Positions 5,282-33,208 of a stretch of 37,236 nt of DNA are shown here, piece by piece. How positions within the stretch are numbered: the first letter of the stretch is position 1; each line of letters begins with the position of its first letter. This stretch comes from a virus. The DNA is taken from positions 1 through 37,236 of the IMG/VR virus record IMGVR_UViG_3300024243_000051. The stretch is one strand, 5' to 3'. Under the pieces are notes generated by a model that saw only the letters and a list, made by a program, of their open reading frames with translations, searched no databases and had not been told where the DNA came from. The position numbers and the translations under genes are program-made.

Positions 5282-6280
5282 CTAATACCCCTCTGAGTGA
5301 AACTGAAGCTGTGCATTTACGTTGTTAGAATTAGCTACTGAAGTAATTTTAAACACATAGTTTTTAGTTTTATCAAAAACCCAATAACCAGTGATTACAT
5401 CGCCAATCACATTGTTTCTTCCACTGCGATACACATCTATTGTGAGTCCCGGCCCACCAACAGTACTGATAAAGTTCTTAGTAAAAACAGTTCCAGTAAC
5501 TCTATCACTAGCTCGATTCTTATTGAGTAAAGTCAAAGTATCACCAATCACACTATCCGTTGGAGCTTCAAATATTTCTACCTTAAATCCATCAGAAGCC
5601 TGAACAGAGAAATCAGTATGAATAGCATATTCAGGATTAATCCTAAACGTAACAAATTCATTCGTAGCCAAAGTAGTGTCCAAGAAAGTATGGAACTGTT
5701 CGCCAGCTTCTACCTTCGACTGGATATGTGTGTAAGATTCTGTCTTCAACTCACCCTTCTGATTAGTCCTCAGAGCAATGTGATGAGAGAACCCAATCTC
5801 TACCTTATCTCCTACATTCAGTGTATCCTTATACTCAACATAGAACAGGGAGTCAACCTTCAATGCTCCATAAGTAGTCTGTTCAGTCTCAGGAACCCAA
5901 TACCCATTCGGAGTAGTGTAGACTGTATCCAGCCATGAAGCCGTGTTCTGAGTCCACTGCCTACCAAGTAGAGTAGCTAATGTGTACTTAAGTACAGCCC
6001 TGTTATATGCTATCTTCTTGGTTACTTCAATACTTATTCGCATACTCTGAAGTGTGTCAAGATCAGCTATATCATTCTGATTCCAGAACGTTTCAATCAT
6101 ATCCGAACCCTGCTTATCTGCTTTATATATCTGAGCATCTGTAGTAAAAGCAAATAGATTCGGACTTGCAGACCATTCCTGTGTTGCGTAGTTCACGTTA
6201 GATGCATTAGTATTCTGAGCTTCAGCTATACCTGTGAAGGATAGCAAGAAAGCAAACATAACAATAAATATCTTTCTCAT
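5282..6280 (-). CDS. Signal-peptide-bearing virion-like protein, copy 2
   Basis: A 332-residue protein with a clear Sec-type N-terminus: Met-Arg-Lys, then a hydrophobic core to about residue 20, then AEAQ at the likely cleavage site. The mature part is rich in Thr, Asn and beta-forming residues and has no enzymatic motif. It is a paralogue of the upstream gene: both share a segment of the form FEAPTDS(V/I)xGDTLT, a following MNRD/KNRA segment and a VTFTKN-like strand. Such FEAP-type C-terminal domains resemble those in phage head-fibre or decoration-like proteins, but those lack signal peptides. The ATG at 6280 has GGAGG upstream. Function is unknown; surface display or periplasmic action is possible. 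Confidence 0.7.
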   Translation of the reverse strand: MRKIFIVMFAFLLSFTGIAEAQNTNASNVNYATQEWSASPNLFAFTTDAQIYKADKQGSDMIETFWNQNDIADLDTLQSMRISIEVTKKIAYNRAVLKYTLATLLGRQWTQNTASWLDTVYTTPNGYWVPETEQTTYGALKVDSLFYVEYKDTLNVGDKVEIGFSHHIALRTNQKGELKTESYTHIQSKVEAGEQFHTFLDTTLATNEFVTFRINPEYAIHTDFSVQASDGFKVEIFEAPTDSVIGDTLTLLNKNRASDRVTGTVFTKNFISTVGGPGLTIDVYRSGRNNVIGDVITGYWVFDKTKNYVFKITSVANSNNVNAQLQFHSEGY

Positions 6281-6290
6281 GCATCCTCCA

Positions 6291-7292
6291 TTAGTTATAA
6301 AGTACCTGAATGGAAATACCATTAGTGGCAGCACCAGATGAAACCTTCAAATAATATTTAAAAGCAGAATCAAGTCTCCAAAAGTTGTTTCCTGTGAAAC
6401 CGCCTATAATTCCTGCGCCTCGCCACGGTATCAATTCAGTTCCATCTCCATTTACTTTAGGAATCAGATTTTTTGTAAAAGTAACACTGGATGTCTTATC
6501 AGTATCCCTATTCATATTTTGAACAGTCAGAGTATCTCCAAAGATACTATCTGTAGGAGCCTCAAATAGTTGCACTCGATAAGCACCAGTTCCCTGCACA
6601 TAGATGTAAGTATCCATGTTGCTGCTTGCAGGAAAGATTCCCATTTGAATAGTATTTGTATTTCCTACAATAGAATCAAATCCACAGATATATAAAACTC
6701 CAAGTCCAACTAAAGCTTCTTCTCTTGTCTTGGCTACAGTAGTAAGCTCTCCATTATCAGTAGTGTTAATAGCTACGTTATGGGTAAACCCAAGAGTAAC
6801 CTTATCCCCCTTTGCCAAGTTAGCATTTGAATTGTAAACTACTGTAAACAAAGAGTCTACAACTTCTCCACCTACATCAGTCGGCAATTCAGGAATGTAC
6901 TGTTGAGTACTCGGCTGTACTGTGTCTCGCCATGTATATTGATTTGTAGGAAACTGTCCAGCCGTGTTATGCTCTATTATATATTCCAGCACAACAGTCT
7001 TCCCTCCCGACTGTGGAAGAGAAAGTTTTTCTACAACCTCAATAGTAATATCCATTCCCGATATCTGCCCTAAATTAGCATATTCTGTTTCAGATGTAGC
7101 AGTTGAAAGGACATCTCCTACATTATTAATCTTAAATGTCTTCGGCGTACCAGCCCTACCAAACATGTTTGCCAGCCCATCAGGGACAGCAAACTCAAAA
7201 GTAGTAGGAATAGTCGTAGAATTTTGTGCGTTACCTATCCCCGCAAAAGTGATCAGCAAGGCTATGACGCATGTGAGAATTTTTTTGATCAT
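6291..7292 (-). CDS. Signal-peptide-bearing virion-like protein, copy 1
   Basis: A 333-residue protein starting MIKK followed by a hydrophobic stretch to about residue 20 and the cleavage-like sequence GNAQ. The mature part is predicted all-beta, rich in Thr, Asn and Gly. Residues about 240-280 (QLFEAPTDSIFGDTLT, then SVTFTKNLIPK) match the downstream paralogue. The ribosome binding site AGGAGG is 5 bases from the ATG. It lies between the large terminase and portal genes, where no secreted protein is normally expected. It may be a structural protein exported for surface attachment or a protein that modifies the infected cell envelope. The signal peptide is clear; the function is not. Confidence 0.7.
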   Translation of the reverse strand: MIKKILTCVIALLITFAGIGNAQNSTTIPTTFEFAVPDGLANMFGRAGTPKTFKINNVGDVLSTATSETEYANLGQISGMDITIEVVEKLSLPQSGGKTVVLEYIIEHNTAGQFPTNQYTWRDTVQPSTQQYIPELPTDVGGEVVDSLFTVVYNSNANLAKGDKVTLGFTHNVAINTTDNGELTTVAKTREEALVGLGVLYICGFDSIVGNTNTIQMGIFPASSNMDTYIYVQGTGAYRVQLFEAPTDSIFGDTLTVQNMNRDTDKTSSVTFTKNLIPKVNGDGTELIPWRGAGIIGGFTGNNFWRLDSAFKYYLKVSSGAATNGISIQVLYN

Positions 7293-7303: not shown

Positions 7304-8869
7304 TTAAAATTCAGTTCTTTGCGGGACATCTAATCCTCCGATAACGTTATATGGATGTTGTCTCTTTTGTTCCATTTCGTAAATCATCTGCTCCATAGTA
7401 GGTACTGGCCCCGTTCTCAGCAAACTAGGAGTCTCTCCTTTTGGTCTGGATGATATAACGTAACGTGTCTCATCCATAAAATGATCGTTCTCTTTCTGAG
7501 GTTCGCCAGCTTCAGTGTATGCATAACGCTGAAACTCTCGTCTGGTATTGTCACAGGTGTCAAGGATAAAAAGTCTAGGCCCATAAGCCCCTGTCAGATA
7601 TCCTCTCGTCCTTTCAATACCAGCCCATTTTCTACCTCTATCAGAAAAATCTTTGAGATTCTTGGCGAAGTCCCTATCAAGAACAGCTTTAATCCCAAAA
7701 GCTCGTAACTCCACTGCTGCGTTAGGCTCACTTCCATCCACTACGCAGAACTCTATTCTTTCGTCACCATTAACTACTCGTACCTTTCTGGCTATCTCAC
7801 TCATGGCTTCGTTCTCAAACCTCATGTCCCGGTACTTGTAGATGTCACCATTGGACGGGTCAACTGCATACCATCCTACAGCGCATACTGTGTAGCCGGG
7901 GTCTAGAGCCATGTACTTGTTCCACCATCTAGGTATCTCGAAGTTGCCCTTAACCAGACAACCCTTCTGGTTTAGATCGCTGTCATAGTATTCATCCCTA
8001 TAACATTTATACACTTTCCCTGTACGGACAGCGAACAAGCCTTTAATACGCATGTCACGTTCCGCTTCATCCTCGCCTATGCTCATATCATCCAGCCTCT
8101 TCAGAGCCTTCTGATCAAGATAGAAATTATCGTAACTGTTCAGAAGCCAGTATTCCACTTCAGGGTCGTTACGCTTGTTCTCAATAATTCTATCATAGAG
8201 ATAGGACATTGCGCCAGACTGAGGCGTAGCAGAGATAACAGTGCTACCGACACCAGCACCCAAAGTACGAAACTCCATCTCTCTAAAAACGTCCTCATCT
8301 TCAGGCTCTTCGTCGAACCAGACTTCAGCCACATAGCGGCCTCTCTGTCTTTTGAATCCCTGCGTCCATGAGCGAAACTGTATTGTAACATCCCCTTCAG
8401 GTCGAGTCACTATCAGTTCATGTGTACTACCCGACCATCTAAGATGTTCGTCTAAGGGATATACCATGTTAGGAGGCATCCAGTAGAGCAATGCCTGTAA
8501 CTGTACATCCCATGCGGTTTTAAAGTCTTCCGTCAACACCCACATCTGAAAGGGAGGCTTCGGTAATGAGGCAGGGTGTCTCCAAAAATGCTGACCCGTT
8601 GCAATCATTACCATCTCAGCCGCAGTAGAAAACGTCTTACTGCTTCTGTTTCCACCGAACAACGCTTTCATCTTCTTATAGGAAGAGTGAAACGGGATTG
8701 TATGCGGAAGACATAGAAGCGGATACATTGCGATTCTATTCTTCAACCAAGCTAAGTACAACATCCCTAGCATACGGTAACGTCTTTTAGTCATTCGCTT
8801 ATCTTGCAGCAAACACTCGAAAGAAGAAAAGGCATTTGCGGCAGCGAAATCTATTTGCTTGTCTGCCAT
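7304..8869 (-). CDS. terL: Terminase large subunit
   Basis: A 521-residue packaging motor. The ATPase domain has a Walker A motif GGNRSSKT (residues 72-79), a Walker B VWFDEE (183-188) with the catalytic acidic pair, and a coupling motif SATPQSG (213-219). The C-terminal nuclease domain begins at ALDPGY (321-326), where D323 is the expected first metal ligand, and has further acidic residues (VVDGSE near 373). It drives DNA into the prohead through the portal and cuts the concatemer. The ATG overlaps the stop codon of the upstream gene by one base (TAATG), so the two are coupled, which fits small and large terminase partners. Confidence 0.95.
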   Translation of the reverse strand: MADKQIDFAAANAFSSFECLLQDKRMTKRRYRMLGMLYLAWLKNRIAMYPLLCLPHTIPFHSSYKKMKALFGGNRSSKTFSTAAEMVMIATGQHFWRHPASLPKPPFQMWVLTEDFKTAWDVQLQALLYWMPPNMVYPLDEHLRWSGSTHELIVTRPEGDVTIQFRSWTQGFKRQRGRYVAEVWFDEEPEDEDVFREMEFRTLGAGVGSTVISATPQSGAMSYLYDRIIENKRNDPEVEYWLLNSYDNFYLDQKALKRLDDMSIGEDEAERDMRIKGLFAVRTGKVYKCYRDEYYDSDLNQKGCLVKGNFEIPRWWNKYMALDPGYTVCAVGWYAVDPSNGDIYKYRDMRFENEAMSEIARKVRVVNGDERIEFCVVDGSEPNAAVELRAFGIKAVLDRDFAKNLKDFSDRGRKWAGIERTRGYLTGAYGPRLFILDTCDNTRREFQRYAYTEAGEPQKENDHFMDETRYVISSRPKGETPSLLRTGPVPTMEQMIYEMEQKRQHPYNVIGGLDVPQRTEF

Positions 8870-9813
8870 TAAATCCTCGCTTGCTGTCTCTGTGCCATCC
8901 TCGCCCTATAGCGCATAGGGTGTCCCATTCTGGACAACGACCCTTTCGCTTCCTCGTAAGTAAGTCCCGGCTTCATTTTACGCATGTCACGGAACCAAAG
9001 CAGGTATGCCCTCCACATTGCAGGATGCATGCCAACATTATCTACTACGTCTGTGGGAACCCAATCAATCCTTGATGGGTCAGCTTCGAACATTTCCTTA
9101 CGGGACTTGCTCAGTTCAGCCTGAACCTGCTTGTCCCTGTTCTTCATCTTGATGGGCTTCTTTTCTTTCTTCTTCGTTTTCTGTTTTGCTAAAGCGGCTG
9201 TCAGTGCTTTCTCCTGCTCAAGTGTAACCTTGGTCAGATGCGACTTCAGCCCAAGTATAGCTATGATCTCTTTTGAAGGAACCTTAATTTCCTTCGACAA
9301 CTCATGCACCCTCTTCGGCACATGTGTCTTCAACTCATTCCCGGCCTTATCTACGATAGTAGCCTGAGTCACCTTACGCTCCTTCTCAATCTCTTTCTTA
9401 CGATTGGCTCTCAGTCTACTCTCTTCGATCATTACTACTTCTTCTGGATTAGGTACAACTACTCCGTGTCCTGTCTGTTCCTTGCGCTCTGCTACAACCC
9501 TCTCGTGATAGCCCTTCTGTTGGGCAAACTTATTCCACCTGTCCTTGTGGTCTACATCATCGTTCTCAGGGTCATGCTCCTGCAACTCAACTACACGCTC
9601 TTCTCTAGGTTCATTGTTGTCTGTCTCTTCGATGAACTCAGTAAACTCTTCTCGTTCTTCCTCTGCGAGTTCCAGAGCTTCATCATCGTCACCCATAGCG
9701 TCTTCTATTTCATCCAATCCAGAATCAATCCTTTGGTATTCTCTTTCGTACCGAGCTTCATCCTCATCTGCTGGTGATACAGCAGCAGCCTTCTCTAAGA
9801 AATCACTAGCCAT
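8869..9813 (-). CDS. IF2-N-like domain protein, possible small terminase
   Basis: A 314-residue protein immediately upstream of and coupled to the large terminase. Residues 1-90 are very acidic. Residues about 166-208 (KRVHELSKEIKVPSKEIIAI, then a Leu/Lys stretch) closely follow the pattern of the N-terminal helical domain of translation initiation factor IF2. A lysine-rich linker (KQKTKKKEKKP) follows, then a C-terminal part with WVPTDVVDNVGMHPAMWRAY. Position argues for a small terminase or DNA-recognition partner, with the IF2-N-like fold possibly serving as a nucleic-acid binding module. No canonical small terminase motif is visible. The ATG has AGGAGAAGC upstream. Confidence 0.5.
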   Translation of the reverse strand: MASDFLEKAAAVSPADEDEARYEREYQRIDSGLDEIEDAMGDDDEALELAEEEREEFTEFIEETDNNEPREERVVELQEHDPENDDVDHKDRWNKFAQQKGYHERVVAERKEQTGHGVVVPNPEEVVMIEESRLRANRKKEIEKERKVTQATIVDKAGNELKTHVPKRVHELSKEIKVPSKEIIAILGLKSHLTKVTLEQEKALTAALAKQKTKKKEKKPIKMKNRDKQVQAELSKSRKEMFEADPSRIDWVPTDVVDNVGMHPAMWRAYLLWFRDMRKMKPGLTYEEAKGSLSRMGHPMRYRARMAQRQQARI

Positions 9814-17887: not shown

Positions 17888-18172
17888 ATGAAAAAGCTTA
17901 TTGTAGTTTGCCTACTGATATGGGTTCCTTTGTGGTGTATTCCTCCAAAGAGAACTATAATCTTTAAGCCAATAAAAAAGGAGAGGTTGATTGAATCAAT
18001 TTGGCATCATATCGTAGAAACTAAACAAGATTCCTGCGTAGAAGTGATGAGAGAAATTATTAGTAGCAAAGGCATAGTTTATGTCAATGATCTCAAAGCT
18101 TCTATCAGGTTTCTAGTATCTGACTCTGTTATTATTGGTGATTCGATTACTATCATATTGGAGAGCAAATGA
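17888..18172 (+). CDS. Membrane-anchored or secreted small protein
   Basis: A 94-residue protein starting MKKLIVV with a hydrophobic segment (residues 4-19) and WCIPP, either a signal peptide or an N-terminal anchor; the rest is soluble alpha/beta. AGAGGA lies 6-7 bases before the ATG. The stop overlaps the next start (ATGA), which couples it to the ubiquitin-like cassette. Confidence 0.55.
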   Translation: MKKLIVVCLLIWVPLWCIPPKRTIIFKPIKKERLIESIWHHIVETKQDSCVEVMREIISSKGIVYVNDLKASIRFLVSDSVIIGDSITIILESK

Positions 18173-20325
18173 ATAAGGCTACTCTTGTTACTGAAACTCC
18201 TGTTGCTGTAGACCGCAGAAGTACTGCCGATAAAGCACATGCCGCTATAGCGGAGTCGTTGATAAAGCAAAAGGTTTACAAGACTGAACGTATAGATATT
18301 TCCGAAAAGAAATATCCTTCTTTAACTGCTACTGCCAAAATAAAAGAAGGTTTTGAACTTTCTCTTATAAATTCACTTGAGCAGGGATTTAGCCCTGTTC
18401 TCATATGCCCTTCCCCTTCTTTCCCTTTTAAAAATATGAAAATGGGAAGAATTCCTCTCAGAAAATATAGTGATATCTCAACAGAAATGCAAAATAGTTA
18501 TTTCAAAAGATATCCACACTTGAATGGAATAGGTAAAAATGCATTCTTTCTTTTGAGTACAAATGAGTTTATTGCCTTCTTGAATCTGAATGAGGCTTCT
18601 ATGTTCAGACCATTTTCACAGGAAGCCTTTAATTTTGAATACATGACGACAGGAGTAAGGAAGAGAAAGAAGCAAGAGTATTCTTCCTCTCAGTATGAGA
18701 ATAGCTACTTCTACTCTGCTCCTTATTCTTGCCTGTCCACTACTCCAAGAGTAGTATCTGCTTCCTCACATACCTCACATATGATGCATATGAAAAGAGA
18801 AGCACATTGTGAAGCTTTCAGAAAGAAATGGCTTAAAAACCAACATGTAGCTATGCTCTGTGGCATGGATATAATGGATTTACATTCAAATTGCTCTCAT
18901 GGTTATGGAGGATATACCTTTGTAAAAAACAATGAGAGTATATCTATATTTGCCTTTTCTTTTGAAGCTACTTATGGGCATGGCATGTATAGAAATATCG
19001 CTCAATATATAGAAAGAGAGATAGATAGGCCAAGAATAGGAAAAGTAACTGTAAGATCAAAATCAAATCCAGATAAAATTCTCTTGGATTTGGATTTGTC
19101 TAAGCAAGCCGATGTAGAAAAATATGAAACTTTTAAACAATTGACTCATATCGTGCAAAGTCATGCCATACAAGATGGACTTAAACATCATTCTGCAAAG
19201 ATTTCAATCAGGGCAGAAGAGAAAAGCAATACAGACGATGCTGTACCTTTTGTAAAGGAATTTGATTTTGAATTGGGAGGAATTGTTCCCAAAAAAGGAA
19301 TATTTATTAACATAAAAAGAGAGCCATATACTCCAACTAGTAAAAACGCTCTTGCTTTTAAATACTTAGAGTGGGCTTTTGATGAAATCAATTCTATAAT
19401 AGAAGCAGACCCATCGCTTCTGAATGAATTCACTAAAAAGAAGAAAGAAAAACGCCTTACTCCGAAACAAAAGATGGAAATAGCAAAGAAACAGTATGTA
19501 GATAATTGTTTAATCCAATTTCGAACAGAGAAAGATAAGTTAACCAAAACGGAAAAGAGTTTGAGAGAAAGACATGAACATCTTCTAACTCAACTTATGA
19601 AATCGTCTTCAGATATAGAAATAATTCATGACAAACAAGAGCAGATTGAAACTACTTTAGCTATCAAAACCTCCAACACGATAGAAAAACAATGGGAGAA
19701 TCTACTTTCTTTATCAAAAGTAGATCAAGTGATATCTAATGAAAAGACTTCTACTCTGTATATAGGCACAAAGCCTTTATTTTGCAGAGACAGTCGATCA
19801 GGAATATTGCATCTGATAGGTAAAATTCAGATAACACTGCCAATGAATAAGAACATGTCATTCATCAAGTATAAGCCATTGGATGTACTTAATTGTTTAG
19901 GCAGAACTAAGAGAAGGCATATTGCTCCACATGTGCCTATTAGTGGTGGGCCTTGCTATGGTAATGTAGGAGCAGTACTGACTCAGCTTATAGGAGAGAA
20001 TAGATATGCGGAAGCTGTGGGTAGGATTATATCTTACCTACAATCCGCTAATGTCAAAGATACATGGGGTAAAGGTGTCCATAGTTGGCCTTGGATTGAT
20101 GAAAATAATAAAACTTTCATCAAAGGATTTGAAAAAGGAGCTACAGAAGGAGAGTTTGTTAAGTATTTGGCTGATAACAACTTTAATCTCAAGGAGGTTT
20201 TGCAAGGTAACTACTTCTATTATATGAGGCAACTCAGAATCCTTGAACCTAAATACTTGACCAAGTACTCTAAGAAAGTGCTTGGAGAATCAGAAGAAAT
20301 GCTTATGACTCATGTAGGAGCGTAA
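18169..20325 (+). CDS. Large protein with C-terminal E2-like conjugation domain
   Basis: A 718-residue protein. Residues 1-390 form an unrecognised region with clusters of His and Cys near residues 200-270 (HTSHMMHMKREAHC, DLHSNCSHGYGGY). Residues about 420-520 are lysine/glutamate-rich and predicted coiled coil. Residues about 540-700 show an E2-like pattern: beta strands, then RRHIAPHVPISGGPCYGN, where H588 and C596 match the His-Pro-His / Gly-x-x-Cys-x-Gly active-site layout of prokaryotic E2-like families, then helices ending in a WGKGVHSWPW segment. It would accept the activated Ubl on C596. The next genes are JAB, E1 and Ubl, which supports this reading strongly. An adaptor without catalytic activity is the main alternative. 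Confidence 0.6.
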   Translation: MNKATLVTETPVAVDRRSTADKAHAAIAESLIKQKVYKTERIDISEKKYPSLTATAKIKEGFELSLINSLEQGFSPVLICPSPSFPFKNMKMGRIPLRKYSDISTEMQNSYFKRYPHLNGIGKNAFFLLSTNEFIAFLNLNEASMFRPFSQEAFNFEYMTTGVRKRKKQEYSSSQYENSYFYSAPYSCLSTTPRVVSASSHTSHMMHMKREAHCEAFRKKWLKNQHVAMLCGMDIMDLHSNCSHGYGGYTFVKNNESISIFAFSFEATYGHGMYRNIAQYIEREIDRPRIGKVTVRSKSNPDKILLDLDLSKQADVEKYETFKQLTHIVQSHAIQDGLKHHSAKISIRAEEKSNTDDAVPFVKEFDFELGGIVPKKGIFINIKREPYTPTSKNALAFKYLEWAFDEINSIIEADPSLLNEFTKKKKEKRLTPKQKMEIAKKQYVDNCLIQFRTEKDKLTKTEKSLRERHEHLLTQLMKSSSDIEIIHDKQEQIETTLAIKTSNTIEKQWENLLSLSKVDQVISNEKTSTLYIGTKPLFCRDSRSGILHLIGKIQITLPMNKNMSFIKYKPLDVLNCLGRTKRRHIAPHVPISGGPCYGNVGAVLTQLIGENRYAEAVGRIISYLQSANVKDTWGKGVHSWPWIDENNKTFIKGFEKGATEGEFVKYLADNNFNLKEVLQGNYFYYMRQLRILEPKYLTKYSKKVLGESEEMLMTHVGA

Positions 20326-20373
20326 TTCTCTCTTAATAACTGTAGTGCCTATCCTTTTGAAAGGAATTGAAGC

Positions 20374-21255
20374 ATGGTGAGAAAGAAACTAACGAAGAGC
20401 GAAAAAAATGCAAAGAAAGGCAAGAACAAGAAGAAAGAAGCAGAGAATAACTCTGGATATATAGAGACTAAGATCATCTCGGAAGATGGCAAGGAAAAGA
20501 AAATAAGTCTTTATAAGTCTGAAGTCTCAACTGACTTGGCCTTACCGTTCAGGACAGATAAGGGTAAGCCAGAATTCACTGTGAGCTTTAATCCAAAAAT
20601 GATTATATCTCAAGAGGCTTTATCTAAACAACAGACTCTTGTCTCAATTGCAGGGCATGAGATAAGTTGGTTCGGAGCAGTCGAGAAAGTAAAGTCTGAT
20701 GTGTTTCGATTGTACGATATATTTCTACCAGAGCAAAGAGTATCTGGTGGAGAGACTGATGCTTCCGGCAAGGGAATCAATCGCATAGTCACAGACTTAC
20801 TGAAAAATATGACCCCAAAAGCAAATGCTATCAAGATTATAAGGGAATTGCGCTTTTGGGGGCATAGTCATGTAAATATGGGAGTTGAACCCTCTTCGCA
20901 GGATAATGCACAGATGAAGACCTTTGGACAAGGAGGGAAACTTGCTCCTTCTTATATGTTCAGGGGAATATTCAACAAGAATGGTAAAGTTATCATTGAC
21001 ATGTGGCATTATAAAAAGGGAATCATAATTAAGAATCTAAATTGGGTTCCCGAAGCCGTAGTCATGGACAATGACCCATTAATTCAGGAGTATCTGGAAA
21101 AAGTTCAGGTATTCAAAACGCATACAAATTCCTCTGATCGGAGGTCGGTTCGGCTTTCTACAGACACAGGGGTCGGGGCAGCAGACGTCGCATGGTGGGA
21201 AAGCCAGTACGGAACACAAGACCAGTTTGAATTCGGAATCGTTGATCGATCTTGA
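20374..21255 (+). CDS. JAB/JAMM metalloprotease
   Basis: A 293-residue protein. A lysine-rich N-terminus (1-25) precedes the catalytic domain. E96 (AGHEISWFG) is the expected upstream glutamate. H164, H166, S174 and D177 (FWGHSHVNMGVEPSSQD) fit the JAMM zinc motif HxHx7Sx2D exactly. JAMM enzymes remove Ubls from proteins or trim Ubl precursors. The Ubl encoded downstream ends in Gly-Asn-Asn, a plausible substrate for trimming. The C-terminal 60 residues are polar and variable. AAGGAATTGAAGC precedes the ATG. Other JAB proteins act in phage tail assembly, but those carry an NlpC/P60 partner, which is missing here. Confidence 0.85.
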   Translation: MVRKKLTKSEKNAKKGKNKKKEAENNSGYIETKIISEDGKEKKISLYKSEVSTDLALPFRTDKGKPEFTVSFNPKMIISQEALSKQQTLVSIAGHEISWFGAVEKVKSDVFRLYDIFLPEQRVSGGETDASGKGINRIVTDLLKNMTPKANAIKIIRELRFWGHSHVNMGVEPSSQDNAQMKTFGQGGKLAPSYMFRGIFNKNGKVIIDMWHYKKGIIIKNLNWVPEAVVMDNDPLIQEYLEKVQVFKTHTNSSDRRSVRLSTDTGVGAADVAWWESQYGTQDQFEFGIVDRS

Positions 21256-21607
21256 CGAAGCCACAAGGTTTGCAGAAGAAGAGCAGGGAGAATACATAAA
21301 AGATATACTCATGGCGAATCTGCTGAAATATCCAAAAGACCTTTTCGCTATGGGGCTTCCTGCCTTCATTATAGAGAAACATATGACAGAGAGTAAGCAA
21401 GAGATATGTGATATAACTCCTGTCTATAGTAAAGAATCTGCTATATGTTACATGGACTCTCTTCCGTTATACAAATATTTAACCATGTACCTTTGCATTC
21501 CTCCCGATGAGTTTATGAATTACGGCTGTAGTCCTAAGTATTACAGGACAATTCTTGATCAATGGAAGGCCGGGGCGGAATCCTCTGAAGCATCAGTAAC
21601 ATTATAA
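21227..21607 (+). CDS. Unknown cassette protein between JAB and E1
   Basis: A 126-residue acidic, mostly helical protein with three Cys in the middle (EICDITP, AICYMDS, MYLCIPPDE) and one near the end (YGCSPKYY). It has no motif I know. The 5' end overlaps the JAB gene by 29 bases if TTG at 21227 is used; an ATG at 21311 is an alternative, but neither has a strong ribosome binding site. It ends 12 bases before the E1 start. Its position makes it a candidate adaptor, E3-like factor or substrate. Confidence 0.6.
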   Translation: MNSESLIDLDEATRFAEEEQGEYIKDILMANLLKYPKDLFAMGLPAFIIEKHMTESKQEICDITPVYSKESAICYMDSLPLYKYLTMYLCIPPDEFMNYGCSPKYYRTILDQWKAGAESSEASVTL

Positions 21608-21619
21608 GGAGCAATACGT

Positions 21620-22348
21620 TTGGACATAACTAGAAGTAATGATGTCTTTAATCCTACCAAGTTTAAAGACAATGTACATGTAGTAGGCGCAGGAGCTACT
21701 GGTGCGAGGGTAGCAATTAGTCTTATCAAGATGGGACTGCCTCCACAACAGCTTCATGTGTATGATTTTGATAAAGTAGAAAGGCATAATATAGGGAATC
21801 AGCCTTATACCAACAATGATATAGGAGAGTATAAGGTTGACGCTCTGAGTAAAATATGTGCCGATCTGGAACAAAAGAGGATTCACACTTACAACATGAG
21901 AGTGAATTCTGCTGAACACGACCCCAATACTTTTGATGGAGTAGTATTCCTTCTGACTGACTCTTTTGATTCGAGAAGGGATATATTCAGAAACATAATT
22001 CAAGAAGGGTTTGATACCAAGTGGGTAATCGAAACCCGAATGGACGTTCTACATGGGATTGTGTACTCTATTCCCATGACTATACCGAAGATAGTAGAGA
22101 AGTATGATGGAACGTTAGATGTAAAGGATGAGGATGTTCCCGCAAGTCCATGTGGGACTCCACTTTCAATAGGTAGTACAGCAGATATTTTGTCTGGATA
22201 TGCTATCTGGTCATTCATCTATTGTGCTAATTTCTTGTACGGCACTACCAGAAAGGAGATACTGCCTAACGACAAACTGCCTGAAATTAACAAGTTGCAA
22301 TTTTCGCTCCGTCCACATATTATCCTGACCTCAAAATACGGAGCATAA
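21620..22348 (+). CDS. E1/ThiF-like Ubl-activating enzyme
   Basis: A 242-residue adenylating enzyme of the ThiF/MoeB/E1 superfamily. The nucleotide-binding loop is GAGATG (residues 23-28). VYDFDKVERHNIGNQ (47-61) carries D49, D51, N57 and Q61 in place of the canonical DxDxVxxxNxxRQ; the Arg is replaced by Asn60. K72 and the TDSFDSRR segment (113-120) complete the ATP site. C178 (ASPCGTPLS) is the candidate catalytic cysteine, placed as in plasmid PRTRC-type ThiF proteins. It lacks the extra domains of eukaryotic E1. The start is TTG at 21620 with AAGGAG 8 bases upstream. It would adenylate the Ubl C-terminal glycine and form a thioester. Confidence 0.88.
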   Translation: MDITRSNDVFNPTKFKDNVHVVGAGATGARVAISLIKMGLPPQQLHVYDFDKVERHNIGNQPYTNNDIGEYKVDALSKICADLEQKRIHTYNMRVNSAEHDPNTFDGVVFLLTDSFDSRRDIFRNIIQEGFDTKWVIETRMDVLHGIVYSIPMTIPKIVEKYDGTLDVKDEDVPASPCGTPLSIGSTADILSGYAIWSFIYCANFLYGTTRKEILPNDKLPEINKLQFSLRPHIILTSKYGA

Positions 22349-22418
22349 GTCAAGGTCAGATGTATGTACATTGTTGGATTAATGTAGTGCCGAAACATAA
22401 CGAAAGGTTTAAACTATT

Positions 22419-22865
22419 ATGGCAAAGATTACCCTGATCATGGTTCCCGGTGATGTGTTGGACGTTACTGTTGCTGAAGGAGCTTCCGTGGCTGATGTCC
22501 TGAAGAAAGGACAGCTTGAGGTTGACGGTCAGGATGTCCAGCTTAATGGTAACGATACCGATCTGGATGCCCCTGTCGAGGATGGGGATGCTATATCGGT
22601 AGCCGATGATGCCAAGGGCAATGCTGAACAGGTTGCTATCAAGGTATCGAAAGTGCCGGGGGACGGAACCACGGTCATGCTGCCCCTCGCTGGTGTAAAG
22701 GATGGAGCCTTTACAGTGGAGGATGTGGCGAAACTGGCGGAAGTTCGCGCAAAGGACATGGAAGGAATGAATGTCTGCGTGAACAACGAGGATTCCAAAC
22801 TCTCTACCATAATCAAGGCAGGGGATGAAATCCTGTTCGCCTTCAATGCAAAAGGCAATAACTAA
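22419..22865 (+). CDS. Tandem ubiquitin-like (beta-grasp) modifier
   Basis: A 148-residue acidic protein of two ThiS/ubiquitin-like halves. Half 1 (about 1-68) has the pattern of beta strands, VADVLKKGQLEVDGQ, then VEDGDAISVADDAKGN. Half 2 (about 69-148) has VKVPGD-like strands, then IIKAGDEILFAFNAKGNN. The DGDxI / GDEI segments are typical of ThiS/MoaD and prokaryotic Ubls. Both halves end Ala-Lys-Gly-Asn, so G67 and G146 are possible processing sites; removing Asn147-Asn148 would leave a C-terminal glycine for E1. Codon use is more G+C-rich than in neighbours, suggesting high expression or recent gain. AAAGG lies 11 bases before the ATG. Confidence 0.8.
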   Translation: MAKITLIMVPGDVLDVTVAEGASVADVLKKGQLEVDGQDVQLNGNDTDLDAPVEDGDAISVADDAKGNAEQVAIKVSKVPGDGTTVMLPLAGVKDGAFTVEDVAKLAEVRAKDMEGMNVCVNNEDSKLSTIIKAGDEILFAFNAKGNN

Positions 22866-23270: not shown

Positions 23271-23555
23271 ATGGGAAAACACACACGGTACAGAGAGATT
23301 TCTGTAGAAGAGATTAAGAAATCCAGTACTGATTGGAAGACTATAGTAGGACTTTCTAATTACGAAGGCACATCTATTCAAGCAGTCTACGAAGAGATTA
23401 AAAAACATCCTGACAGATTCATTCTGCGTACTTTGGAAGGAAGTAAAGTCACTATCCTAGCTAGGATAGCACCTAAACAAATAGTTCCCGGTAACTTTAG
23501 CAGAGGCAAGGTTGCTCCTACTGTTCCGCCCAGCTTTCGAAAGTATGACACATGA
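23271..23555 (+). CDS. Hypothetical protein upstream of primase
   Basis: A 94-residue basic protein; the segment SVEEIKKSSTDWKTIVGLSN may be a short helix-turn-helix, but this is weak. GGAAGGAG precedes the ATG. It overlaps the primase gene by four bases (ATGA), which suggests a primase-related role. An 18-bp perfect palindrome lies at 23452-23469. Confidence 0.6.
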   Translation: MGKHTRYREISVEEIKKSSTDWKTIVGLSNYEGTSIQAVYEEIKKHPDRFILRTLEGSKVTILARIAPKQIVPGNFSRGKVAPTVPPSFRKYDT

Positions 23556-24658
23556 ATGTACTTCAGATATTAAACAGATATCATGTCAGGTATGAGCATA
23601 ATCATCCTAACCAGACAGAAGGATGGGTAGGGGCATGGAGATGTCCCTATTGTCAAAAGCCTGACTATCATTTAGGGATTAACTTAAAGTCAGGTGGATT
23701 CAAGTGTTGGGTGTGTGGAGAGAAGGGCTGGATAGCTAAACTGATGGAAAAGTTTGGGGTAGCTGAAGATGAGCTACAATTAATTCGACAATCCTTTGAG
23801 CCATTCATCATATCAAGAGATGAGATCAAAAGCAAATACAATAAAGAAAGCAAAGAAAGGAGAACGGCTTTACGATTAATACCGGGAACACATCCTGTTC
23901 CACCTATGGCAATGGCAAAGCTTAAAGCTTATCTCGAACTAAGAAAGATTATTGAACCGGGAGATAATTTGGACGATACAATGATAGCAGTACACAGATA
24001 TAACCTCTTCATTGGCACTGGGGCAAACTGGGAAGGAAGAATATCTGCTCCAATAGAGCAGTTCAAGGATGGACAAGTCATTGATGTTGGGGCAGTAGGA
24101 AGATCAACCAATGATGAGAAAAGAAAGTATCTATATGAAGAAGGAACTCAAATGACCAAAGGATTTATTGGTCTGTCTTTCCTTCATAAATATCTATTCA
24201 CTAATCCAGAAACAGATGAATATTCTGAAGGCATCATTATTCCCATAGTAGAAGGAATGTTTGATGTTCTTTCTTTATGTGAGCCTTATGGAGATTCCCT
24301 TATTGATACTGTTGTATGTCCTCTTGGCATTGGCGGCAGTCATATGTCAGATCAGCAGCAGCTTCAGTTAGGCGTAATCATTACTGCTTTACTGGATACA
24401 AATCAGGGTAAGCGTTCCCCTATCTTTGTGCCTGTAGCTTTAGACAGGGATAAGTACGATGAGAATGTGAAGATAGTAAGCTCATTGAGATTGATTCTCC
24501 CTGACAAAGTTAAAGTGTTCCCTGTCAAGTGGCCTCAAGGAGTGCCAGACCCAAATGATTACATGACACACAACAAGGATGATGGGATTAGCTGTGCTTT
24601 ACTCGACTTCTACGATGGATGGAAGGCAATTGAAGATGTTACCAAACTAGAAAGGTAG
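23552..24658 (+). CDS. DNA primase (zinc ribbon plus TOPRIM)
   Basis: A 368-residue DnaG-type primase. The N-terminal zinc ribbon uses C31, C34, H40 or nearby, C52 and C55 (CPYC and CWVC). The TOPRIM core has VEGMFD (233-238, E234) and ALDRDKYDE (296-304, D298 and D300) as metal-binding acids. It is shorter than bacterial DnaG and lacks the C-terminal helicase-binding domain. It makes primers for the lagging strand and should work with the DnaB-like helicase encoded at 27962-29347 on the other strand. Start overlaps the upstream stop. Confidence 0.9.
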   Translation: MNVLQILNRYHVRYEHNHPNQTEGWVGAWRCPYCQKPDYHLGINLKSGGFKCWVCGEKGWIAKLMEKFGVAEDELQLIRQSFEPFIISRDEIKSKYNKESKERRTALRLIPGTHPVPPMAMAKLKAYLELRKIIEPGDNLDDTMIAVHRYNLFIGTGANWEGRISAPIEQFKDGQVIDVGAVGRSTNDEKRKYLYEEGTQMTKGFIGLSFLHKYLFTNPETDEYSEGIIIPIVEGMFDVLSLCEPYGDSLIDTVVCPLGIGGSHMSDQQQLQLGVIITALLDTNQGKRSPIFVPVALDRDKYDENVKIVSSLRLILPDKVKVFPVKWPQGVPDPNDYMTHNKDDGISCALLDFYDGWKAIEDVTKLER

Positions 24659-30194: not shown

Positions 30195-30692
30195 GTGGAT
30201 AGTCAATTAGTAATCTGGTGTGAAAAGTGTAAGAACTACAGCTTAGTTTTCGACTCAATAGTTTACCCGGAAGCAAATGTTATTGGCAAGCTTGTGTACA
30301 AGTGTAGGACTAAGAAATGTGAAAGGCTATGGAGGGTAATGACAGAAGACCCCGACAACCATCCCTTGTTACACTCTGACTTGAGTTACCAAATTGTGAG
30401 TCAGTTTGTAGGAGGGTTGCCGTTTCGTTTATGTAGTGAGGAGCCTTCTGGCACGGAGACTGGACAGGTTGCCAGAGCAGTAGCTACTCTGCCTCATAAC
30501 CTTCAGCAAGCAGAAACGATAATGAGGACAACTAGGCCAACAAGGAATATGAATGAGAGAGCCGCTAGAGCAAGAGAGGCTATTCCTCAACCTATTGCCC
30601 CGCTTGAATTTGGTACAGCATGGATGGACGAGACTGAAGAAGCTAGATCAGAACCTGCCGTATATGACACTGCGCGGGGGACGTTACGATGA
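30195..30692 (+). CDS. Zinc-ribbon protein upstream of polymerase
   Basis: A 165-residue protein with GTG start; AAGGAGG lies 4 bases upstream and an in-frame ATG at 30153 would lie before the transcript start. C9, C12, C37 and C42 form a zinc ribbon (WCEKCKNY, KCRTKKC). The rest is low-complexity, with Arg/Ala-rich segments. It overlaps the polymerase start by four bases (ATGA). Confidence 0.65.
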   Translation: MDSQLVIWCEKCKNYSLVFDSIVYPEANVIGKLVYKCRTKKCERLWRVMTEDPDNHPLLHSDLSYQIVSQFVGGLPFRLCSEEPSGTETGQVARAVATLPHNLQQAETIMRTTRPTRNMNERAARAREAIPQPIAPLEFGTAWMDETEEARSEPAVYDTARGTLR

Positions 30693-33208
30693 AGTGTGCC
30701 TGTCACGAACAAGTAGATACGCTAATCAATCCTAGGATGCGACCACAAGGAAAGTTTGAAAAAGAAATCCTAGTGATAGGGCGAACTGTTCAACAGCAAG
30801 AGGATGCAACAGGTAGATTATTCTTGAGCAGTTCGGGACATATAGTGCGTAACTCGTTAAAGAAAGCAGGACTTGATGTAGCCACAGGCAGTAACATTCA
30901 GAAGCAGACAGATGTAGATGTGATGTTCCACAATTGGAGAAGATGTGGGTTTGATTTTGGAGTGGAAAAAACAAACCTAAAGCCTTGTACCTCATACATG
31001 AATAGGCTGATCACAGCTATACAACCTAAAGTTATTGTAGCTATAGGTCAGGAAGTCTTTGAGAAGCTTATGCCTATGACGTACAAGATTGATCGGGCTA
31101 CATGTAAGTTGATGCGTGGCATAGCTATACCAAGTTACAAGCATAACTGTTGGGTTGTTCCGGTTCTTGATTCGGAAGCCTTGATGATGGATGAGAGGCA
31201 CCAAGATTTTATGTTCGCTCAATTTGATAGGGATATTAAGAATGCAGTTGAGCATTCAGAGATTCCTCTACCAAAAAAGCCAGAGCCAAAAGAGATTGTC
31301 GCTCTGGACACAGCAGAAGAGATAGAAGAAATCTTAGCCTCTGAAGAGTTTTCACATGAAGACTATTGGGTGTCATTTGATTTTGAATCCACCCACTATG
31401 ATGCGAGGAAAGGAGACTTACTTACTGTAGCGTTAGCCAGTTCTGGATGTGATGCCGTTTATACTTTCCCATTCAGACGTTTAGAAACAGAAGAAGAACA
31501 AGAGCGAGTGAAGTGTGCCTTCAGAGATTGGCTATGCTCTGACTGCGCTAAGATAGTGACAGAGATTAACATGGAGTTCCTGTGGTCATGGGCTAAGTTC
31601 GGTGTGATTCCTAAGAATATACACAGGGCTACGGAAATCATGACCCACATTGCTGATCAAAGAAGAGGAACAAACAGTTTAGATTGGAGAGCTTTAGCTG
31701 ACTTTGGTGTGTACTACAAAGACATCGTTGACCGTAAGAACATGGCAGCAGAAGAGTTAGATAAAGTTCTATATTACAATGGGCTTGATGCCTACTACAC
31801 TTTACAGTTGGCTTTACTATATGAGAAAAAGATCAAGGCACAGGGACAGGAGAAAGCCCTTGACTTATTGACCAAAGCTAGTTATATTTATTGCAAAGCT
31901 TCAGTAAACGGAATCAAACTAGATGAGACAGTACTTGACCAAGTTGGACAGGGATTTGAGAAGCGTAAGAACGAGATAGTCGATGAGCTAAAAGAATTTC
32001 CGTGTGTACAAGAATGGGACAAGGCTGTGCATATCACGCACTCCCTACCTATTAGCAGTATCAAGCCCACATTCGAGGGCGAAATAATACCAAGCGCAAG
32101 GAAGCAAAGAGGCAAGACATTACTCAAAGCGTTGTGGACTCCTACTGGACAGATCAATAGGAGAGCCGTACTCTTTGACATACTAGGTGCGCCCGTCTTG
32201 ATGGAGACAGACAGTGGAGAACCTAGCCTATCTGCCGCTCACATGGACTTACTGGCAGAGGAATGGAAGGATGATGTTGGGTTGAAGTATGTTAAGAAGT
32301 GTCAGGAAGCTACGACTATAGATACTATAATCAAAAGCTACATGAACCTTAAGAATAACATATGGCCTGACGGAAGGATTCATCCTAAGTTTAAACTATC
32401 TGTACCACGGACTTATAGAAGTAGTAGCTCTGACCCTAACTTTCAGAACCAACACAAGCACGGAGAGGGGGTGGCATTACGGAAAGCTTTTGTGCCTACA
32501 CTTGACGGATTCCTAGCGGCTGATTACGGAGCTATGGAAGTGAGAGTGATAGCGTACCTGAGTCAAGACAAGGTACTACTGAAACAGTTGAATGATGGAT
32601 TTGATTTGCATGCGTATTGGGCTTCTAAGTTATGGAACATTGAGTTTAACTCCTTTCTTAGAAACTTGAAAAAAGATGAGTACAAAGAGATGCGGTTCAA
32701 GGCCAAGAACATGTTTGTGTTTCCAGAGTTTTATGGTAGTTGGAATGAGCCTATCTCTGAGAACATCGGCCTCTCAGTTAAGAGGGTGAGGCTGGTTGAG
32801 TCTTGGTTCTGGAAGGAATACAATGGAGTAGGTAAGTGGCACAATAAACTAGAGGAACAGTACAAGACTGACCACGGAATTTACCTGCCCAATGGATTCT
32901 ACATACCGGGGCCGCTAACAAGAAACGACATCTTCAATTACCCTGTGCAGGGGCCAGCATCACATTACGTTGCGGCATCTTGCATTGACCTACAGCAAGT
33001 CTATGAAGAGAAAGGATTTGAATCGTACTTGTGTGGTCAGATACATGATGATATCATTACTGATTTTACGAAAGGAGAAGTGCGTGAAGTATTGAAAGTA
33101 AAAAAGGAAATTATGGAGACTCCTAGATTTGGACTGAGTGGTGCGCCTTTGCTGTCCGAATTCTCAATCAGTACAACTAACTGGCATGACATGGAAGACA
33201 TAGGATAA
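30689..33208 (+). CDS. DNA polymerase family A with UDG-like N-terminal domain
   Basis: An 839-residue polymerase. Residues about 25-190 resemble family 4/5 uracil-DNA glycosylases (EDATGRLFLSSSGHIVR, and NLKPCTSYMNRLITAIQPKV then VAIG), but the N-terminal GEAPG-like catalytic motif is degenerate (IGRTV). A 3'-5' exonuclease domain begins with DFESTHYD (231-238). The polymerase domain has motif A DYGAMEVRV (612-620, D612), the O-helix region with FYGSW, and motif C IHDD (785-788, D787). It is the replicative polymerase and should work with the DnaB-like helicase and SSB. Phage polymerases with UDG-like N-termini are known in SPO1-like phages. Confidence 0.9.
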   Translation: MKCACHEQVDTLINPRMRPQGKFEKEILVIGRTVQQQEDATGRLFLSSSGHIVRNSLKKAGLDVATGSNIQKQTDVDVMFHNWRRCGFDFGVEKTNLKPCTSYMNRLITAIQPKVIVAIGQEVFEKLMPMTYKIDRATCKLMRGIAIPSYKHNCWVVPVLDSEALMMDERHQDFMFAQFDRDIKNAVEHSEIPLPKKPEPKEIVALDTAEEIEEILASEEFSHEDYWVSFDFESTHYDARKGDLLTVALASSGCDAVYTFPFRRLETEEEQERVKCAFRDWLCSDCAKIVTEINMEFLWSWAKFGVIPKNIHRATEIMTHIADQRRGTNSLDWRALADFGVYYKDIVDRKNMAAEELDKVLYYNGLDAYYTLQLALLYEKKIKAQGQEKALDLLTKASYIYCKASVNGIKLDETVLDQVGQGFEKRKNEIVDELKEFPCVQEWDKAVHITHSLPISSIKPTFEGEIIPSARKQRGKTLLKALWTPTGQINRRAVLFDILGAPVLMETDSGEPSLSAAHMDLLAEEWKDDVGLKYVKKCQEATTIDTIIKSYMNLKNNIWPDGRIHPKFKLSVPRTYRSSSSDPNFQNQHKHGEGVALRKAFVPTLDGFLAADYGAMEVRVIAYLSQDKVLLKQLNDGFDLHAYWASKLWNIEFNSFLRNLKKDEYKEMRFKAKNMFVFPEFYGSWNEPISENIGLSVKRVRLVESWFWKEYNGVGKWHNKLEEQYKTDHGIYLPNGFYIPGPLTRNDIFNYPVQGPASHYVAASCIDLQQVYEEKGFESYLCGQIHDDIITDFTKGEVREVLKVKKEIMETPRFGLSGAPLLSEFSISTTNWHDMEDIG

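Follow-up and report, generated by a model that had tools for sequence, protein, structure and literature searches.

Ubiquitin-like (Ubl) protein systems of bacteria have so far been known chiefly for housekeeping in the host or for defense against phages, Bil being an example of a bacterial Ubl system in anti-phage defense. In the PRTRC plasmid system, a ThiF-family protein is accompanied by JAB-, E2- and Ubl-like partners. Bacterial operons combining E1, E2, JAB and Ubl genes (types 6a-6e) have been predicted (Iyer, Burroughs and Aravind 2006; PMC1779556); where passages of that work mention phages, they do so for the TAPI/TAPK tail genes, and a phage E1/E2 set is not found in those passages. 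Work on CBASS (cyclic-oligonucleotide-based antiphage signaling system) describes bacterial Ubl systems that function against phage (PMC10097602). Here we describe a cassette of four conserved genes, encoding an E2-like protein, a JAMM (JAB) metalloprotease, an E1-like activating enzyme and a tandem Ubl, in a 37-kb virus record, IMG/VR IMGVR_UViG_3300024243_000051 (37,236 nucleotides; hereafter the window, to whose full length all coordinates refer; Table 1). We consider it very probable, judging from the sequences, that the four genes form a phage-encoded reversible Ubl conjugation system, set beside replication genes. With enzymes for activation and conjugation, a tag and a protease that could remove it, the cassette recalls the ubiquitin machinery of human cells.

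The E1-like protein matches Pfam ThiF above the cut-off (1.6e-17), and in the PDB its family profile (A2) matches yeast Uba1 (1.3e-17), UBA5 (4e-17), ThiF (7e-15) and BubCD (2.8e-10). The window protein has both the ThiF/Rossmann adenylation site (ATP-site residues G23/G25, D49, D51, N57, Q61, K72 and D114) and a candidate catalytic Cys, Cys178 (codon 22151-22153), within the motif SPCGT; this site, a "CGT..SIG" loop near the domain end, resembles that of the catalytic Cys of ThiF/E1 enzymes. In the alignment of 71 distinct sequences, D49, D51, N57, Q61, K72 and D114 are kept in all and Cys178 in 70. The gene starts with TTG, and AAGGAG upstream reads as its ribosome-binding site.

The Ubl matches Pfam ThiS above the cut-off (8.5e-7) over two stretches, which correspond to two beta-grasp domains. 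Both domains end in AKG followed by N, with the Gly at G67 (22617-22619) and G146 (22854-22856), and G67 is kept in 29/29 relatives. Against the PDB, the family profile (A5) finds SAMP2 (8.8e-8) and also ThiS. Single-domain relatives terminate exactly in ...AKGN, several bacterial ones in ...RGG/KGG. The beta-grasp fold and a C-terminal or exposed Gly are thus both present, and the tandem Ubl may be read as a polyprotein, predicted from its sequence to be processed by the JAMM protease. The E1 and Ubl folds on which the original prediction staked its case are thus both recovered by profile searches (Uba1/UBA5 and SAMP2, respectively).

For the JAMM protease, the window sequence has the residues E96, H164, H166, S174 and D177, in the arrangement E96..H164-S-H166-x7-S174-x-x-D177. 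A phmmer search with this single sequence aligned its HSHx7SxxD to Rpn11 (E 0.13), and the family profile matches yeast/human Rpn11 at 9.1e-9, as well as CSN5, BRCC36 and archaeal JAMM1 (0.006). Among 127 relatives, the HxH and D are invariant (127/127), S is kept in 126 and E96 in 89. Profile and conserved motif, E..HxHx(7-10)SxxD, together identify the protein as a member of the family. In the cultured Flavobacterium phage Fpv1 (L003, KU599877.1), a group I intron (5934-6179; RF00028, E 2.2e-9, 43.4 bits against a gathering score of 50) splits JAB at the HxH of the JAMM motif; a 249-amino-acid open reading frame (ORF) on the opposite strand (6133-6882) is homing endonuclease-like in appearance. 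The JAB gene is uninterrupted in a related contig, L007.

The E2-like protein consists of an N-terminal part of ~400 amino acids, a long helical/coiled-coil stretch, a UBC-like core (~515-650) and a helical tail; its start codon and the end of the preceding ORF overlap (ATGA). The core has the motif APHxxxxxxxCYG, with the putative catalytic Cys596 at codon 19954-19956, and the alignment keeps Cys596 and Gly598 in 37/37 distinct relatives. Residues 1-410 have no relatives among the homologs compared. As a single query against Pfam, the PDB, phages and plasmids, the window E2 gave nothing useful, and family profiles alone worked. A longer profile (A3), whose PDB matches were coiled coils, was replaced by a profile of the core (A6); the best PDB match of the latter is 0.0074, all 60 matches listed are ubiquitin-conjugating/UBC-core proteins, and the alignments line up the HP(H/N)...Cys of the E2 core. 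In a Foldseek search of the PDB with an AlphaFold2 model of the window protein (mean predicted local distance difference test score, pLDDT, 78.7), the nine best matches are UbcH7 and UFC1 (best E 0.01, probability up to 0.93). A UBC fold with an active-site Cys after HP(N/H) is therefore what sequence and model consistently point to, with moderate statistics.

A second type of E2-like protein, found in the Flavobacterium and crAss-like phages, keeps a Cys in 31/31 sequences and aligns with the window type in hhalign (78% probability, 1.8e-5), Cys upon Cys. Its identity as an E2 is less certain than that of the window type: sequence supports it, the fold weakly, as matches of its model to the PDB are weak (best E 0.15), with the UEV domain of TSG101, an E2 variant, recurring at E 0.2. 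Two E2-like genes are present in some phages (L037, L041, L052). In these, and also in the metagenome-assembled genome (MAG) contigs L105-L107, the pair is consecutive and stands ahead of JAB; the second copy in L105-L107 is "APYVxxDGRICP"-like, unlike the usual CxG.

An E1 alignment search of IMG/VR yielded 165 related stretches, of which 80 were kept for analysis. Together with phage records and the window, these make up a viral set of 75 loci with distinct E1 sequences. JAB accompanies E1 in 72 of them, an E2 of either type in 67 and a Ubl in 63; all four genes are present in 62, and the recognized cassette genes share one strand in 75/75. Some loci scored as lacking the Ubl (L054, L056, L060 and L049) have divergent small Ubl genes just upstream, with the ends AGGF, AGGRQ, AGGNAC and KGA. 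The order of the genes varies (Ubl-E2-JAB-E1, Ubl-E1-JAB-E2, Ubl-E2-E1-JAB, E1-Ubl-E2-JAB and, in the window, E2-JAB-E1-Ubl), and this retained linkage under a shuffled order indicates selection on the cassette as a unit. Genes scattered in relatives would have counted against the original prediction; they are linked there, in several arrangements. In one viral contig (L078:5980-9685), two E1-like genes flank Ubl, E2 and JAB (E1-Ubl-E2-JAB-E1). By clustering of neighbors, other common families (primase, uracil-DNA glycosylase [UDG] and others) are limited to subsets of loci, and the window has very few genes in common with the other loci. Single-sequence scans of IMG/VR with the window proteins found nothing beyond one near-identical contig.

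The carriers include cultured Flavobacterium phages (Fpv1 and its relatives), as well as crAss-like Steigviridae (for example Kolpuevirus "frurule" and cr106_1) and bajarodcaudo virus 1. The last three share the order primase, Ubl, E2, JAB, E1, X, UDG. In the Flavobacterium/crAss type, the Ubl retains KSG (Gly in 32/32), followed by a tail. With the E1 of L056 as query, 83 records of the "phages" collection were matched, among them 29 Bacteroides and 29 Flavobacterium phage records. Jumbo phages of Xanthomonas and Erwinia carry the cassette without JAB: PhiXhv-12 of Xanthomonas has E1, an E2 match (1.1e-7) and a probable Ubl ending in SGG, with no JAB across its whole genome, and the Erwinia phage Ep032 has a near-identical E1 match.

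The cassette had been proposed to comprise five genes. E2, JAMM, E1 and tandem Ubl are retained in this count; the fifth, an ORF of 126 amino acids between JAMM and E1, has no significant match in Pfam, NCBIfam or PADLOC and no relative in any of the other loci compared. We therefore judge it, on sequence comparison, to lie outside the conserved cassette, which has four parts.

The chemistry of such a system can be sketched from residues conserved in families of known mechanism. The JAMM protease would cleave behind the Gly at both AKGN sites of the tandem Ubl, giving two mature Ubls with terminal Gly. As the conserved ATP-site residues and Cys suggest, E1 would then adenylate this Gly with ATP and load the Ubl onto its Cys178, from which it would be handed to Cys596 of the E2-like protein. 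The latter would join the Ubl to target proteins and, since no E3 gene was recognized, its unique N-terminal 400 amino acids and coiled coil may choose the substrates. Finally, the same JAMM protease could take the Ubl off again. Some phages thus probably tag proteins during infection. The most likely role, which we put forward tentatively and at somewhat less than even chances, would be to alter how proteins of the host or of the phage act in the early phase of infection, together with the replication module that the cassette usually adjoins. As for the broader proposition, that a large lineage of tailed phages, among them the abundant crAss-like phages of the gut, encodes complete and self-contained Ubl conjugation and deconjugation, acting on proteins of host or phage as a previously undescribed post-translational means of early takeover, we regard it as evenly balanced.

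Several observations count against conjugation. An E3, as said, is missing from the genes recognized. The E-value of the E2 profile to the PDB is modest (0.007), as is the Foldseek result (best E 0.01; target-normalized template modeling [TM] score ~0.33-0.50 for the nine best). As single sequences, the window E2 and JAMM fall below the Pfam cut-offs, and where the HPH motif has its first His the window E2 has Ala (APH), with the second His retained. Of the claim that the phage makes and attaches its own Ubl, the identities of the components and their linkage stand, and attachment is the best reading of the genes. Could E1 and Ubl instead yield a Ubl-thiocarboxylate that donates sulfur (ThiS/ThiF, MoaD/MoeB or TtuB-like), for example in nucleotide or RNA thiolation? 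Both proteins do resemble ThiF and ThiS, phage records label them "thiamine biosynthesis protein", and archaeal Ubls and Urm1 serve in both conjugation and sulfur transfer. However, 67/75 viral loci have a linked E2-like protein, whose Cys is invariant, and its presence favors conjugation. The window E1 is also far under the equivalog cut-offs of ThiF (53.5 versus 159 bits) and MoeB (16.3 versus 376.55), which sets it apart from the thiamine and molybdopterin enzymes, its sequence has neither a CxxC zinc pair nor a rhodanese domain, and no sulfur-transfer gene was recognized among the neighbors scanned. We regard a sulfur carrier as the least probable of the alternatives, to be given very little weight. 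Only slightly more credible, and still highly improbable, is the view that the cassette plays no part in the phage's own cycle, being either a decaying operon captured from bacteria or a moron with effects chiefly on the host. Related sets do occur on bacterial and candidate phyla radiation (CPR) MAG contigs, two of them in the window's order, and bacterial MAG contigs are the nearest single sequences to the window E1. Against this, the set is kept, with intact active sites, in many viral clades across large divergence, and the JAB gene of Fpv1 contains a group I intron; such introns tend to insert into conserved genes of phages.

A role in counter-defense, in which the phage system disturbs Ubl immunity of the host (Bil, Bub, type II CBASS), for example as a competitor for the host E1/E2, by modifying these enzymes or by using JAMM to strip host tags, appears unlikely, albeit less so than the other alternatives. 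Bacterial Ubl systems do serve anti-phage defense, and an E1 accompanied by a Ubl of its own and by JAMM might serve as a decoy or might erase tags. For erasing alone JAMM would suffice, yet E1, E2 and Ubl are retained with intact active sites, and the carriers include very different phages. Virion maturation, where conjugation would mark structural proteins or take part in their processing, in the manner proposed for lambda TAPI/TAPK, is improbable in our judgment. The lambdoid tail assembly operon encodes a Ubl and a JAB protein, according to the passages on it in PMC1779556, and L037/L041 and L047 have unannotated, possibly structural genes on the opposite strand beside the cassette. TAPI/TAPK come without E1 or E2, though, the structural operon of the window lies on the strand opposite to the cassette, and the neighbors in the window and most relatives examined are primase, UDG, DnaB, RecA-like or polymerase genes: primase and UDG in crAss-like phages, DnaB and primase in L053, a RecA-like gene in L056, DNA polymerase A in L031 and primase in the window. 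Context thus favors a replication or early module rather than head assembly, and for the conjugation system an early role over one in virion assembly.

Table 1. Features of the cassette and its surroundings in the window
Feature	Position	Strand	Size and basis
E2-like protein	18169-20325	+	718 aa, ORF
JAMM/JAB (MPN+) metalloprotease	20374-21255	+	293 aa, ORF, motif, family profile
Orphan ORF between JAMM and E1	21227-21607	+	126 aa, function unassigned
E1-like (ThiF fold) activating enzyme	21620-22348	+	242 aa, Pfam ThiF
Tandem Ubl	22419-22865	+	148 aa, Pfam ThiS
DNA primase-like gene, just downstream of cassette	23552-24658	+	PHROG DNA primase 4e-11
Terminase, left of cassette	7304-8869	-	phrog_2, 2.8e-22

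The layout agrees with the original prediction in that five adjacent ORFs are found on one strand, with head and replication genes nearby: the terminase lies to the left on the minus strand, and DNA primase, RNA ligase, UvsX, a DnaB-like helicase and DNA polymerase A lie to the right. A near-identical 54-kb IMG/VR contig (99.94% identity over the 22 kb shared and compared) prolongs the left end of the window. Promoter-like sites are no more frequent than in shuffles. The DNA polymerase A gene (30689-33208, plus strand; PF00476, 7.2e-40) matches the uracil-DNA glycosylase superfamily at its N-terminus (PF03167, 8.8e-8), an apparent UDG-polymerase fusion. Adjoining the terminase, the gene at 8869-9813 (minus strand) has a short match to the IF-2 N-terminal region (PF04760, 4.8e-5, ~20 amino acids, below cut-off). 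The neighboring genes at 5282-6334 and 6291-7292 (both minus strand) belong to one sequence cluster (c220) and are possible paralogous head genes.

Cellular relatives were found by a genome scan on MAG contigs of Myxococcota, Methylomirabilota, Chloroflexota, Nitrospinota, CPR and others, the taxa being taken as binned. Two MAGs of Buchananbacteria have the order of the window, E2-JAB-E1-Ubl, next to a UvrB gene (by Pfam for L108) and an adjacent ORF that is UvrA-like by sequence appearance. In L105-L107, a gene for a ClpA/C-type AAA+ unfoldase directly follows E1 (by Pfam for L106; L106:7750-10143), which suggests a tie between Ubl tagging and the unfoldase in these bacteria. In the E1 tree, the window is on its own long branch, within a clade that mixes viral and bacterial MAG contigs and with deep branches poorly resolved; its closest single sequences, on bacterial MAG contigs, have 40-42% identity. 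Transfer of the cassette between phage and host, in either direction, would be the simple reading.

If phages own a full cascade, the Ubl tag would be active on both sides of the conflict, and a function would be at hand for linked crAss-like genes annotated "hypothetical", "metalloprotease" or "thiamine biosynthesis". Cultured carriers (Flavobacterium Fpv and Bacteroides crAss-like phages) make protein tagging by phages directly testable. In the open-access literature, crAss papers included, no phage E1/E2/JAB/Ubl set was found reported, with most subscription journals and all preprints outside that scope; such parts are familiar in bacteria, but the open literature searched yielded no phage-borne lineage of comparable breadth, and priority is uncertain.

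Among known systems, Bub, Bil and type II CBASS have the logic of E1, E2 and JAMM in common with the cassette, and the E1 profile matches BubCD, as noted above. The window E1 is, however, a phage-borne, stand-alone protein of 242 amino acids, unfused to JAB or E2. PADLOC models for E1-E2 and JAB match the window partially and weakly, the E1-E2 models covering the ThiF part only. The separate E1 and E2 and a 6A-MBL Cap2/3 score of 34.2 versus 320 bits set the cassette outside CBASS type II/6A-MBL, and no CD-NTase was recognized among the proteins scanned. For Bil, the libraries used, which had no Bil-specific model, gave no named match. The likeness to PRTRC loci that had been claimed extends to a ThiF-family protein with JAB-, E2- and Ubl-like partners in both, but membership is not borne out: the window E1 scores 36.7 bits with PRTRC_ThiF (TIGR03736), below the cut-off of 144.75, and no other PRTRC model matched among nine proteins scanned. 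In the archaeal SAMP2/JAMM1 pair, SAMP2 is the closest solved Ubl and JAMM1 is among the matches of the JAMM profile; the phage cassette includes a linked E2-like protein, whereas to our knowledge archaeal SAMP systems use no E2. Lambda TAPI/TAPK (gpI/gpK) are likewise a phage-encoded Ubl and JAB, but they lie in a tail assembly operon and lack E1/E2; the window cassette has unassigned early ORFs and primase as neighbors, with no recognized tail genes. Closest in kind is type 6d as set out in the passages on it in PMC1779556, which shares with the phage cassette four functions in separate linked genes, an E1 without rhodanese and a Ubl with terminal Gly. The phage cassette differs from 6d in being phage-borne, in lacking the conserved alpha-helical fifth protein and in its E2, which has the classical His before the Cys (HPHx..CxG), whereas 6d E2s are described there as without that His and with one downstream.

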